Below, piece by piece: positions 1 to 29,873 of a DNA stretch of 64,000 nucleotides (the first letter of the stretch is position 1; each line of letters opens with the position of its first letter). Source of the stretch: Pseudomonadales bacterium. GTDB taxonomy: Bacteria > Pseudomonadota > Gammaproteobacteria > Pseudomonadales > JAHRWD01. Location of the stretch: positions 1 through 64,000 of the forward strand of contig JAESUM010000059.1 in NCBI GenBank assembly GCA_016763075.1, in the 5' to 3' direction. Below the pieces are notes generated by a model. The model saw only the letters and a list, made by a program, of their open reading frames with translations. It was not told the origin of the DNA and ran no database searches. The position numbers were made by a program, and so were the translations under genes.

Positions 1-84
1 AGTCGTATCAGTCGTATCAGTCGTATCAGTCGTATCAGTCGTATCAGTCGTATCAGTCGTATCAGTCGTATCAGTCGTATCAGT
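1..84 (-). repeat. Perfect 9-bp tandem repeat (agtcgtatc)x9 plus partial copy; reads as (Asp-Thr-Thr)n on the minus strand
   Basis: Direct reading of bases 1-84; the tract continues beyond the window edge; in frame with the CDS starting at 2865. Confidence 0.97.
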
Positions 85-2865
85 GTTTATCGTCACACCA
101 GCTCTTAACTGCTGGCTCAATTGGTTAAAATAAAGCTCAGCCCCATCAAAGTTAGTTTGGGCTAATTCAGCTAACTGTTGTTTTTTCTGCTGCGACAGTG
201 GCGCAACTTGACCATTGTTTAACTTGTTATTAACAGTACTTTGAAGAACCTCAAACAGGTTAGGGTCGTCATAATTTATTGGGGCATCCCCAGCCATCAA
301 TTCCATCACCCCATGTAATTTTGGCGTATTGCTGTTCAACAGAACATAAGGCGTATCTAACATGGCCGCCGCAAGGGTATGGTGAAAGCGCCCAGAAACC
401 AGTAATTTTGCGTTGGCTAAGCATTGCAGCCATTGCTGTAAAGAAGAGGCTACCAATACCGTAACGTTCCCTTCTAGCTGTGCATACAGGTCATTCACGA
501 AGGTCACATCATCCGATGCAATGTTATCCCGCGCGCCAATTAACACCGTTACTTCATAAGCTTGTTTTTGTAAGTATTTAACTAGTTCAGATAACGCACC
601 CAAGGATTCTTTCAGCCAACTGACTGAGCCGGCCAGCACAACCCCTTCGCGGTCCGTAATAGTGAGCTGGTCACGATAGCGCTCAACATATAAAGGCATG
701 CAGTCAAAGCTCAACGCACTGGTAATGCCGCCATCAGCTAGTAGCCGACGACTTACCGGCTCGCGAATTGCAACATAATCCAACACAGAATAAACCTGTT
801 TATAAAGCGCGAACTCAACAGAATCCTGCCACAGAGCTGATTCTGCCGGGTAGCAAGAATGGTTAATAATTTGAACGTTTTTACCAAAGCGTTGCTTGGC
901 AATGTACGCAATGTACAGCAATGAAAGCGAGGTAATACTGGTTCCATGCAAAGAACCTTCACCATTAATCACAATAAGATCGTGGGATGCCAACTGGTCC
1001 ATAAGCTCTCTGTTATCTACCACAAAGCGCTCAAAGAATGAGTCGGAATCCAGGTCTTCAACCTGCTCTACGCAGGGCTGAATATTGGTAACTTGTTGAA
1101 TGCCAACGGCGTCTACCGCATAGCCAATTTCTTTTAACTTCCCGCGAATAACGCAGCTGGTTGCAGTACAACCCCAGTGATACCAGTTACTGGTATCGTT
1201 TACAAAAAGCGCAGTTGGCGCGCACTGAGGCAAGCTATTTTGGGATGTTTGTTTGAGCTGCGCAGTCACCTGGCTTATTACGTCGTTCCAATCACCCGCA
1301 CTGGACTGCCGAAATAGCGTAATGCTGGCATACCATGGCGAGTCATCTCGCTCAAGAAACCAACGCCAATCTGGCACTAGGGGCAGCATCACCCATGTTT
1401 CAACACCCAAAGCCGCCGCTAAATGAACGGTAGAGTTATCGATAGAAATAACTAAGTCTAAAGCGGCTACCTTGGCTGCGAAGTCGTCCATTTCAGATAG
1501 ACCATTGGTATCGGCCCAGTCCATCACTTTAACGCCGGTTTCCATTTCTAGCGCTTTAAGCTCTTGCGTGTGATCACCGTATTGGATGTTAATAAATTGA
1601 ACATTGGCGGTATCTAACAAGCCAATCCAACCGGTAAGCGGTATTGACCGGCCGCGCTGTAGCGCAGCAGATTTACCACCAACCCACGATACTCCAACCT
1701 TAAGGCTGGCCCCCAGTTCTTCATAACGTTGATGCCATTTAGCCATCAATGCCGGTTCGGGTATTAGGTAGGGTTGTGGGTTTTTGAAATCAGATAATTG
1801 CTTACGGTTGTGAATAAGGATGTCACCCATCGGGCAACAAAGGTCAATTTCGTAGGTTTCAATATATTGGTTTAACCCCTCTAACGTATAACCCGGGAGT
1901 ATGGTGGCGTGAGGGAATGAGCGCTTAAAGAGCTGCGCCAAACGTGGCTCACATGCTATGTATGTGTTTGAAGGTTGGTCAAGTAGCTCTGCAAAACACG
2001 AGGCGAACATGATTTCATCGCCTATACCTTGCTCGCCGTAAATTAAGAAGCTACGCCCAACCAATGATTGCCCGTGCCACCGCTCAATGGCTAAGTCAAA
2101 AATTACTCTGCTTGCGCCTGTTGAATAAGGCTCCCATTCGTAGCCCTTCCAACCGTCTTCAAGGTCACCAATAAGCCTTAGCAATATGCCGCGAAAGTTA
2201 TGCAAATCAGCATCTTCAGGGTATAGCGATACCGCACGGTCAAATAAATCTACCGCATCAAAAAACTGCCCCAAACCTTTGAGGGCTCTTCCCCAGTTCG
2301 AAAGCACAATGGGTGGCTCTATATTTCGTACCGACAATTTACTGCATAGTTCGACTACTTCGGGGTAACGCTCAAGTTCCAGCAATGCAGAGCTCATATT
2401 CACTTGTGCTTCGGCATACCCCGGCTGAATAGCAAGTGCTTGCTCGAAATAGGTCATGGCGTGTTCGGGGTTGCTTGCGGCCAAATAAATGGTACCCAAA
2501 TTGCTAATAGCCGCCACTGCTTTTGGGTCTAGTTCAACGGCGCGGCGGTAGCATTCTTCTGCGTTTTTAAGTGCTCCGTTCGCCTTAAAAACATTGCCAA
2601 TATTATTGTGATAATTGGGTTCATCGGGCTTGATGAAAATGGCCTTTTTAATCCAGATTTCTGCACCTTCAAGCTGTCCGGTGTTCAGTGCCACTACGCC
2701 CTTAAGGTGGTTTAAGTCAGGGTTGTGTGCATATTCTTCAAGCTGAGCATCAAGTACTTGATCGGCCTCTATATATTCTTCAGATTGGATCAAACTGATA
2801 ATTTTCTTGATCGATAACAGGACAGGATGCTGATCTTTAGAGGAATTTATTTGCGGGGTTGTCAT
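1..2865 (-). CDS. TPR repeat + GT9/GT41-like glycosyltransferase + polysaccharide pyruvyl transferase fusion (3'-truncated by window edge)
   Basis: Manual reverse translation from ATG at 2865 to base 1 finds no stop (>=955 codons; absent from ORF track because it has no stop in the window). N-term TPR-like helices (..HNNIGNVFKANGALKNAEECYRRAVELDPKAVAAISNLGTIYLAASNPEHAMTYFEQALAIQPGYAEA..), middle GVSWVGGK.../DLVISIDNSTVHLAAALG, C-term VINGEGSLHG.../LLVSGRFHHTLAAAMLDTPYV typical of pyruvyl transferases. Confidence 0.8.
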   Translation of the reverse strand, partial: MTTPQINSSKDQHPVLLSIKKIISLIQSEEYIEADQVLDAQLEEYAHNPDLNHLKGVVALNTGQLEGAEIWIKKAIFIKPDEPNYHNNIGNVFKANGALKNAEECYRRAVELDPKAVAAISNLGTIYLAASNPEHAMTYFEQALAIQPGYAEAQVNMSSALLELERYPEVVELCSKLSVRNIEPPIVLSNWGRALKGLGQFFDAVDLFDRAVSLYPEDADLHNFRGILLRLIGDLEDGWKGYEWEPYSTGASRVIFDLAIERWHGQSLVGRSFLIYGEQGIGDEIMFASCFAELLDQPSNTYIACEPRLAQLFKRSFPHATILPGYTLEGLNQYIETYEIDLCCPMGDILIHNRKQLSDFKNPQPYLIPEPALMAKWHQRYEELGASLKVGVSWVGGKSAALQRGRSIPLTGWIGLLDTANVQFINIQYGDHTQELKALEMETGVKVMDWADTNGLSEMDDFAAKVAALDLVISIDNSTVHLAAALGVETWVMLPLVPDWRWFLERDDSPWYASITLFRQSSAGDWNDVISQVTAQLKQTSQNSLPQCAPTALFVNDTSNWYHWGCTATSCVIRGKLKEIGYAVDAVGIQQVTNIQPCVEQVEDLDSDSFFERFVVDNRELMDQLASHDLIVINGEGSLHGTSITSLSLLYIAYIAKQRFGKNVQIINHSCYPAESALWQDSVEFALYKQVYSVLDYVAIREPVSRRLLADGGITSALSFDCMPLYVERYRDQLTITDREGVVLAGSVSWLKESLGALSELVKYLQKQAYEVTVLIGARDNIASDDVTFVNDLYAQLEGNVTVLVASSLQQWLQCLANAKLLVSGRFHHTLAAAMLDTPYVLLNSNTPKLHGVMELMAGDAPINYDDPNLFEVLQSTVNNKLNNGQVAPLSQQKKQQLAELAQTNFDGAELYFNQLSQQLRAGVTINTDTTDTTDTTDTTDTTDTTDTTDTTDTT

Positions 2866-6280: not shown

Positions 6281-7813
6281 TTACTGAAGTAACGACAATA
6301 CTTGTTGTGGCGCCGCATTGGCTTGACCTAATACAGAAATACCTGCTTGTTGCAGAATTTGCGCTTTAGTCAACGCTGCGGTTTCTGCTGCAAAGTCAGC
6401 ATCCAGAATACGTGAGCGAGAAGCCGCTACGTTCTCAGCAACACTGGAAAGGTTAGCAATGGTAGATTGCATCCGGTTCTGAACCGCACCAAGTGAGGCT
6501 CGTGTAGAGTCAATTGCTTTGATCGCTGAATCAATCAATCCCAATGCAGTATTGGAGCCACTAACGGTTGATATATCAACATCTTTAATTCGTGCAGTTT
6601 CTTCAGTGATGGTACCCGCGTTAGCAGTTGTGCCAGTCATGAAGTTACCTGCACCAGCAGACGTATGCAGCGTCAAAGTAGTTGTCGATGCTAGCGCCGT
6701 AGTGAATTTGATATCACCCGTGATTTTCACACTATCAGTACCGCCTTGTGTCAGCGTAGTAGCACCATCTGTTGCATCAATGGTAGTACCATCATAGTTA
6801 AGCGCACTTACTGTAACCGTAGAATCACCACCACCACCCGTCGACGTATAAGTAACGGTTATGTTGTCACCCGTATTGTCCAGAACATCCACAGTACCAT
6901 CGGCGTTATCTACGACAGTAAAACCAGAAAGGTTAGAAGTGCCTTGAATGGCCGCTGTCAATGCAGCACCTTGAGCCGCCGCGTTACCACTCAAGTCAAC
7001 TGCGCCGAGGGATACGCCATTGATGGCTAATGTCGCGGTATCACCAGCAGAAGTACCCGCACCAAGCGTAATTCGGGCACCTGATTTAGCATCCGCTGTG
7101 ACACCACCAACCGCTCCGTTAATCGAATCAGCGATGGTACCCATTGAATCGCCAGCAGTTACTGAAACGGTAGTTGTTTGCGCTGCTACGTTAAAGGTTA
7201 AGGTTTGTGCTGCGATATTGTTAGTACCGGCAAGGTTAGCTAAGGTAACCGCAGCAGAATCAGTTGAGTTAACCTGAGTTGCATACGCAACTGAGTTAAT
7301 TTGACCCAAATCTGCAGTTCGCGCTGAATTGATACTGACTCGAATTACCTCGTTCGCTTCAGCACCAACGTGGAAGGATTTAGAAGTAAAGGTGCCACTC
7401 AACAATTTTTCGCTACCAAACCGAGTTGTGGTCGCAATACGATCAAGCTCTGATTTTAGCTGTGTTACTTCATCGTTTAGCGCTTTTCGCTCAGTTGCGC
7501 CGTTTGTTGCGTTAGCAGACTGAATTGACAGTGTCCGCATACGTTGCAAAATATTGGTAGATTCTTGAAGCGCGCCCTCAGCGGTTTGCGCCAGTGAAAT
7601 ACCGTCGTTAGCGTTTCGTACTGCCTGGTTAAGGCCGTTGATCTGTGAGGTTAACCGGTTAGAAATCGCAAGGCCCGCAGCATCGTCCCGCGCGCTGTTG
7701 ATTCGTAGACCAGATGATAAGCGCGCTAGCGCTTGGTTTTGCATGTTGCCAGACATCGTTAAGTTACGCTGAGCGGTTAACGACGCGACGTTGGTATTAA
7801 TGGATAAAGCCAT
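6281..7813 (-). CDS. fliC: Flagellin
   Basis: [18 protein letters not shown]...and C-term [47 protein letters not shown] track starts at 7822, start chosen at MALSINTN. Confidence 0.96.
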
Positions 7814-7903
7814 GATAGACACCTATATAGCAGCCTGTTAAAAAACAGGACTTTGATATTCAGCGGATATATCAACAAGTGATATTTACCGCTCCCAACT
7901 AAT

Positions 7904-28070: not shown

Positions 28071-29873
28071 ATGTCCAGTATTAACCAACACGTACGGCTT
28101 GAGCCCAAGGAAGCGCTCAATCCAAATCTCAGTTTTTGCACCGCAAAACCAAAAGCGCTACGCGTATGGGTGGAAGAACTACCTATAACCAACATTCCAA
28201 AAGCTTCGAAGTTATTGCACGATGCAATTATCGAAGTACATCTATTGATAACTCCACCCGAGAACCGTTTTCAGCTATTAGAAGTTCTCGCCGAACCGAT
28301 TCGGGCTATTTGTATAGTACTGACCAAAAATTACCTTGGTCAGACCCTTGTGCTGACACAAAAAACCATGAATGCGGCGCAGCTGAGCCAAGCACTGCAA
28401 TCCGAACTAGCATCCGCTTACGAACGTGTGATTGTCGATACAAAAGACACCCGCACCGGTATCACCCGAAAACCGCCTGCGTATACCGCGACGGCAATAT
28501 ACCGCTGTATTGCTGAGCTACTGCAACTGCAACTGCGCTGCCACCTTTTGTATTCTGCACTACCGGATTATTATTGGCTCAAATTGAACACGCTGTATTT
28601 ATACGCAGAGCAACTGAATTATTTATCCATCACACAGCAGACTCCAGGTTTCGAGCATTTCTCATCATTAACACCTGCTGATTTATATAAAGTTTCGATA
28701 TTGCTAGAAGTGGCTAAGCCGGAACAACTACGTCAGCAAGAGATCACTCACCTTAAAGAAGTGCTACCACTCTGGGCAAAAAAGGTGAAATTGTCCCCTT
28801 ATAGCCCCGAGGTTGCACAGTCCTTTATTGTTGATATTCACAGCAATCAACCGCCGCAATATAACAAAGTACCGAATGATGAAGATGTGCATCATGTACG
28901 TGTTTTAGACACTAGCGAGCTAGTAACTGCATTAAGGGATTATATTTATTCACGCAGCTCTGATACCGATATAGCAAATAACCCTGACCCAGACTTTGCA
29001 GTCCCCGAACAGTTTGGGCCCGACCTGATGACCAAATTATGCAATGCTTGGGGCGAACGGGGAAAAAGGTTGCTTCAAAGATCCGACGTTAATATGCACG
29101 TGCAAGCATGCACCGGTCTAACGTCTATTCATTACTTTGCATCAGGTTGTGTCGATTTTGCTACTGCACCAAAAAACACCCACGTTATTTATACCGAAAA
29201 AGGTGACTTCAAAAGCGACCCAGGCACCAGCTACAGCACTGAACTTGCTATTGAAGAGATGGATGTATGGAGTAACACGTTTAACTCAGAGCCTACTGAA
29301 ACCGAAGAAAAATCATTTCAGGCTGAAATCAACAATACCAAAGAATTCAAACTCGAAACCATTAATGCCAGTGCAGGTGGTTATTGCTTGCGATGGGATC
29401 CAGAAATAACCGAAAAAATTCAGGCTGGCGATCTTATTGGTTTGCAAACCGGTAGCTCTAAACCTTGGGGGCTTGGCGTTGTTCGTTGGATCCGCCAAGA
29501 TCAGTCAGCGTTATTCAATATCGGCGTTGAGTTTCTATCCGCGATGATACGTTGTTGCGCCATTCAAGCAGTCGGTGCAAGCGATATTGGCACCGATCCG
29601 CTTCGGGCTCTACTTATCCCTGGATCAAAGAAATCTGGCCGGCCACCGACCATCATTACTTATCACAGACCTTTTAATTCAGGCAGCAAAGCAAAAATTA
29701 TCATTGGTGATAAAAGTACTCAGGTGCGCCTAAAACAAAGTATCAACTCAAGCTATGCCTTTAATCAGTTCACCTATATGGTATTGGCAGAAAACAAACC
29801 CGCAATGGGAGCCTCGTCAGAGCAGGTGGATGGGCAACAATCCAATATAGACGCGCTGTATGAGAATTTATAG
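28071..29873 (+). CDS. PilZ-like domain-containing protein of unknown function
   Basis: C-term NASAGGYCLRWDPEITEKIQAGDLIGLQTGSSKPWGLGVVRWIRQ resembles PilZ-type segments; large N-term without recognised domain. Confidence 0.6.
   Translation: MSSINQHVRLEPKEALNPNLSFCTAKPKALRVWVEELPITNIPKASKLLHDAIIEVHLLITPPENRFQLLEVLAEPIRAICIVLTKNYLGQTLVLTQKTMNAAQLSQALQSELASAYERVIVDTKDTRTGITRKPPAYTATAIYRCIAELLQLQLRCHLLYSALPDYYWLKLNTLYLYAEQLNYLSITQQTPGFEHFSSLTPADLYKVSILLEVAKPEQLRQQEITHLKEVLPLWAKKVKLSPYSPEVAQSFIVDIHSNQPPQYNKVPNDEDVHHVRVLDTSELVTALRDYIYSRSSDTDIANNPDPDFAVPEQFGPDLMTKLCNAWGERGKRLLQRSDVNMHVQACTGLTSIHYFASGCVDFATAPKNTHVIYTEKGDFKSDPGTSYSTELAIEEMDVWSNTFNSEPTETEEKSFQAEINNTKEFKLETINASAGGYCLRWDPEITEKIQAGDLIGLQTGSSKPWGLGVVRWIRQDQSALFNIGVEFLSAMIRCCAIQAVGASDIGTDPLRALLIPGSKKSGRPPTIITYHRPFNSGSKAKIIIGDKSTQVRLKQSINSSYAFNQFTYMVLAENKPAMGASSEQVDGQQSNIDALYENL

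Follow-up and report, generated by a model that had tools for sequence, protein, structure and literature searches.

The best-known flagellin glycosylation uses nonulosonic acids. FlmG of Caulobacter crescentus, a flagellin O-glycosyltransferase that joins TPR and glycosyltransferase (GT) regions, uses its TPR domain to bind flagellin and requires NeuB-made pseudaminic acid (PMC7591256). Pyruvyl transfer has been described for other acceptors: lipid-linked precursors of cell-wall polymers in the case of CsaB, and N-glycans of yeast in that of Pvg1p (PMC10435577, PMC6801904). In CsaB, residues R148, R306, H308 and K328 are implicated in binding phosphoenolpyruvate (PEP), and R217, R337, H339 and K361 are their equivalents in Pvg1p (PMC10435577). 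The enterobacterial flag-2 VR1 loci encode PF04230 proteins together with methyltransferases, and pyruvyl and methyl decoration of the flagellin glycan has been proposed there from sequence; these are distinct proteins, the pyruvyl transferase occurring in fourteen Citrobacter strains, and the accessible part of that report describes no fusion to a TPR-GT (PMC6993521).

The window analysed here, a 64,000-nucleotide stretch of DNA from a Pseudomonadales bacterium, encodes a protein likened to FlmG by architecture, in that both carry an N-terminal TPR region and a GT-B-type glycosyltransferase in one soluble protein with a flagellar role, presumed in the present case. FlmG, however, has 596 residues, lacks both a polysaccharide pyruvyl transferase (PPT) and a methyltransferase (MT) domain and depends on pseudaminic acid (PMC7591256), whereas carriers of the fused gene lack NeuB. 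CsaB and Pvg1p resemble the PPT part of the window protein in belonging to PF04230 and in the R, R, H and K residues reported for PEP binding (PMC10435577, PMC6801904), but both lack a TPR-GT in the same chain, and neither has a known action on flagellin. The GT41 O-GlcNAc transferases (OGT, SPINDLY) likewise place a TPR superhelix before a GT-B domain; a GT41 identity was nevertheless rejected, because the window protein has no match to the GT41 profile of Pfam at E<=1 and its GT part is GT9-like. Separate pyruvyl transferases and methyltransferases in flagellin-modification regions have been published for the flag-2 loci (PMC6993521), and the fusion is apparently unreported. Full-text literature searches, with few subscription journals in their reach, turned up neither a TPR-GT-PPT fusion nor a flagellin shown to be pyruvylated, and in a review of pyruvate substitution (PMC6801904) no flagellin case came up under the word stem 'flagell'.

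The reading frame and its modules

An earlier note on this DNA described an uninterrupted minus-strand frame of at least 955 codons that was absent from the ORF track, and this proved correct: from ATG 2865 the frame (2865..1) stays open for 955 codons to base 1 of the window, which is also base 1 of contig C45. Ordinary ORF lists omit the gene because it runs off the end of the contig. An alternative minus-strand start, GTG 2889, would give 963 open codons to base 1; ATG 2865 is the likely start codon, because the predicted N-terminus MTTPQ aligns with MTTSN of the congener protein. If each codon has a stop probability of 0.055, as for this base composition, an open stretch of 955-963 codons would arise by chance with a probability of about 2e-24. 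About 40 bases ahead of ATG 2865 lies a perfect 16-base palindrome, GCCTACAATTGTAGGC (2907-2922), with no T run after it, which is possibly an operator or attenuator. The features of the locus are as follows.

1..2865, minus strand: 5' 955 codons of the TPR-GT-PPT-(MT) gene, open to the contig end; 3' part on contig C63, gene intact in the congener
2131..2823, minus strand: TPR superhelix, aa 15-245, presumed to bind flagellin by analogy to FlmG (PMC7591256); Pfam TPR families, AlphaFold helices
1231..2118, minus strand: GT9-like GT-B glycosyltransferase domain, aa 250-545; Glyco_transf_9 at cut-off, fold matches to family-9 transferases
2017-2019, minus strand: D283 in EQGIGDE, invariant in alignments; candidate catalytic base, a role we assume from HepI
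226..1221, minus strand: PPT domain, aa 549-880; PS_pyruv_trans 51.4 bits, CsaB model
763-765, 388-390, 382-384 and 319-321, minus strand: PEP-site-like residues R701, R826, H828 and K849, matching CsaB R148, R306, H308 and K328
1..84, minus strand: 9-bp minisatellite, a perfect tandem repeat that encodes (Asp-Thr-Thr)n as a linker ahead of the methyltransferase-like domain; the same array ends contig C63
3117..7822, minus strand: fliT-like gene, fliS, fliD, flaG and fliC (flagellin, 6281-7822), the presumed substrate and its neighbours, upstream; ORFs named by sequence and order, in the same order in the congener

The reading of the frame as TPR, GT and pyruvyl transferase regions is borne out by Pfam, NCBIfam, the relatives and AlphaFold models. 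The TPR region matches TPR_2 (E 6e-23), and the PPT domain matches PS_pyruv_trans (PF04230) at E 2e-13 and 51.4 bits, more than twice the cut-off of 25.3; in a search of the window's own genome (54.5 bits) this is the only PF04230 protein. Glyco_transf_9 (PF01075) reaches 21.8 bits over the whole protein (E 1e-4) against a cut-off of 22, and the CsaB equivalog model TIGR03609 scores 55.1 bits (E 7e-15), well below its cut-off of 213.1. The TPR, GT and PPT folds are modelled confidently, with a mean pLDDT of 76.0 for the full congener protein and 84.5 for the GT and PPT parts of the window protein. Fold searches with the full model are dominated by TPR and OGT matches and those with GT plus PPT return mixed GT-B folds, GT-B enzymes ranking first and Pvg1p absent from the 50 matches listed. 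A viral-library fold search returned GT9 (family-9 glycosyltransferase) and WcaK-like PPT models. Searches of PDB sequences with the PPT profile, the GT domain and the MT domain yielded nothing informative.

The supposition of a tri-modular whole protein, on the other hand, does not stand, since the frame is truncated at the contig end and a fourth, methyltransferase-like module follows on contig C63. A 24-base probe of the repeat array has a single other site in the genome, at the end of that contig and in the same orientation (G000 contig C63 17628-17723, L029), where the same frame continues through the DTT repeats into about 200 methyltransferase-like residues containing the glycine-rich, SAM-binding-type motif EFGSGIG and 70% identical to the C-terminus of the congener protein. 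Downstream of this part lie fleQ, fleS, fleR, fliE, fliF, fliG and more flagellar genes, named by sequence and order. In the congener, a Pseudomonadales MAG (G001, also L041), TPR, GT, PPT and MT form one intact frame of 1139 aa between fliT and fleQ, and the (DTT)n array is absent. Because the repeat is shared, the reading frame is kept and the congener gene is intact, we infer the C45-C63 join; the predicted window protein is thus composed of TPR, GT, PPT, a variable linker and a methyltransferase-like domain, and the 9-bp array breaks the assembly. Through the copy number of (DTT)n, linker length may differ among strains. Phase variation by this repeat was considered and rejected, because a unit of three codons changes the length of the linker and keeps the frame. 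The C-terminal domain of this genus is a putative class I SAM methyltransferase with weak profile scores (TRM5-TYW2_MTfase, 21.4 bits against a cut-off of 28, E 3e-4, run on the 70% identical congener domain), and it is poorly modelled by AlphaFold.

Relatives and genomic settings

Relatives were sought with a profile of the PPT part in 84,980 species genomes and in genomes of the order. One-frame TPR-GT-PPT proteins occur in several species of Zhongshania, in Spongiibacter thalassae, in gammaproteobacterial and other MAGs and in one Micavibrio, isolate genomes included; they are 29-37% identical to the congener protein over its full length and 30-41% identical to the window protein over GT and PPT. 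Judged by sequence, the fusion is real and conserved over several proteobacterial lineages. The earlier note had singled out a pyruvyl transferase fused to a TPR-GT in a flagellar locus as the unusual part: the protein is fused and does lie in such a locus, but it is not unique to this genome, belonging instead to a small, dispersed family of which some members lie outside flagellar clusters. In the window and in its congener the frame adjoins the flagellar filament genes as had been stated, with the fliT-like gene to fliC upstream in the same order in both. Elsewhere in the window, a plus-strand ORF of 600 aa (28071-29873) has no Pfam match at E<=0.01.

Flagellar neighbours are found in 8 of 14 carriers, counting a pair of adjacent genes in G069, where TPR-GT and PPT are separate and stand beside flgL, plausibly the unfused state. 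Besides the window, the congener and this pair, the gene lies between fleQ and fliS (L044), between flgL and fliC (L048, L049), between hook and flagellin-like genes (L051) and next to fliC (G142). The isolate Spongiibacter thalassae KMU-166 is among those with the flgL-fliC placement. It is placed away from flagellar genes in three Zhongshania genomes (L042, L043, G171) and in L045, L046 and L047, all six of which encode flagellin except L046, an incomplete genome in which none was seen; in L045 the gene takes the form of two overlapping ORFs. Behind the same TPR-GT-PPT core, L044 carries another C-terminal methyltransferase (7069-7656, Methyltransf_23, E 3e-6), and its difference from that of the window's genus suggests that methylation modules were gained independently. 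Quick domain trees resolve the family too weakly to tell a single fusion from several. Long TPR-GT frames in two further members of the order (G094, G170) were rejected as other fusions, being overlong open frames.

Proposed function and alternatives

The reading preferred here, to which we give a probability of about 0.5, is that the protein would be a FlmG-like multifunctional cytoplasmic enzyme of flagellin modification that carries its own modules for pyruvylation and, in this genus, probably for methylation of the glycan. The N-terminal TPR superhelix would hold flagellin before export, and the GT9-like domain would pass a sugar from an activated donor to flagellin Ser/Thr or extend a first sugar. 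The PPT domain would then place a ketal-linked pyruvate from PEP on the sugar that the GT added, after which the C-terminal MT-like domain, tethered behind a flexible Asp/Thr linker, would probably methylate the glycan. The sequence itself establishes the structure of the gene, its domains, their conservation and the genomic context; from these we infer the order of TPR binding, GT, PPT, MT and export, as we do every catalytic step, donor and acceptor in it. The earlier suggestion that a single polypeptide could transfer and pyruvylate a flagellin glycan gains support, as a prediction, from the retention of the fusion over large distances and of residues that match the PEP site. In its favour were counted the profiles, the models, the intact congener gene, the conserved fusion, the PEP residues, the flagellar neighbours, the sole genomic PF04230 protein and the FlmG precedent. 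Counted against it were a GT9 match only at cut-off, CsaB equivalog and MT scores below theirs, the six non-flagellar loci listed above, the lack of flagellin in L046 and the degenerate PPT of G142.

The most serious alternative, which we consider unlikely, is that in an otherwise ordinary TPR-GT the PPT-fold domain has lost pyruvyl transfer and serves as a second transfer module or as a glycan- or protein-binding one. The member in G142 would fit such a case, as its PPT is degenerate and has lost the PEP-site motifs while the architecture is retained, so that one lineage at least seems able to do without the pyruvate cap; the CsaB equivalog score below cut-off and a GT-B-like fold that brings up other GT-B enzymes first point the same way. 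Yet the PF04230 score is far above its cut-off, and, in window numbering, R701, R826, H828 and K849 do not vary among the ten aligned family members, a correspondence to CsaB and Pvg1p drawn by motif, order and spacing rather than by direct alignment. The R-x-H spacing is exact, and H and K lie 21 residues apart in the family against 20 and 22 in CsaB and Pvg1p. The PPT part also has more invariant columns, 64 of about 360, than the GT part with 29 of about 300.

Slightly less probable again is a substrate other than flagellin, whether another protein or a polysaccharide, lipid-linked or of the surface, with the flagellar position incidental. Known PPTs act on polysaccharides (PMC6801904) and six carriers hold the gene away from flagellar genes, but its repeated insertion next to flagellin, in varying arrangements across several lineages, a TPR module like that of FlmG and the presence of flagellin genes in nearly all carriers argue for the flagellin-modifying enzyme. 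That the frame is a misassembly chimera of separate genes, as its end inside a tandem repeat at the contig edge might hint, is largely refuted by the intact 1139-aa congener gene, by fusions in independent isolate genomes and by an even G+C (0.46-0.48) over the TPR, GT and PPT domains.

Nonulosonic acids and a possible pyruvate cap

None of the 14 carriers (eight in the order sample and six further named genomes, several of them incomplete MAGs) has NeuB, which serves nonulosonic acid synthesis and is present in 126 of 392 genomes of the order. Its absence from the window's genome argues against a nonulosonic acid donor. When the lists are joined, 44 genomes of the order have this GT domain, and NeuB occurs in 15 of the 36 without the PPT against none of the 8 with it; the one-sided P is 0.024, or 0.018 at a stricter GT cut-off, in a comparison made after the first result was seen and in which the eight carriers represent four families rather than independent lineages. 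An avoidance of NeuB by PPT carriers among these GT genomes is suggestive only.

Only a few kilobases separate a PPT-less TPR-GT from NeuB and further sugar genes in two other genomes (G029, G021). G006 has no NeuB; there, a 1119-aa frame of two tandem TPR-GT units stands between fliD and fliS (L070, contig C15, 3058-6414) and adjoins genes that by eye resemble GDP-mannose pathway enzymes. Together, these settings suggest that donors probably vary in the wider TPR-GT family. In G142 (L066, contig C35, 8698-14901), the fused protein with the degenerate PPT is preceded by genes that by eye are KdsB-like, SDR, AroB-like and cytidylyltransferase-like, a gene set hinting that the donor sugar there may be Kdo-like.

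In Schizosaccharomyces pombe it is a pyruvylated sugar, and neither sialic acid nor phosphate, that gives the surface its negative charge (PMC6801904). From this precedent and the NeuB contrast comes a reading in which pyruvate replaces the nonulosonic acid carboxylate. In lineages that do without nonulosonic acid synthesis, a pyruvate ketal added by the flagellin GT's own chain would have replaced the sialic-acid-like acidic cap, giving a one-chain line that binds, glycosylates, pyruvylates and methylates, with MT modules gained independently in two lineages; this extension is tentative and less probable than the enzymatic reading itself.

Protein pyruvylation has been proposed as a mimic of sialylation, and a one-gene system would for that reason be of practical use. 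If the proposed function is true, flagellin would join the pyruvylated acceptors as a new kind, a single chain would tether transfer to capping, and whether the filament needs a carboxylate could be tested directly by point mutation in one domain. The NeuB contrast further suggests that pyruvate may replace nonulosonic acid in these bacteria rather than merely decorate the glycan.
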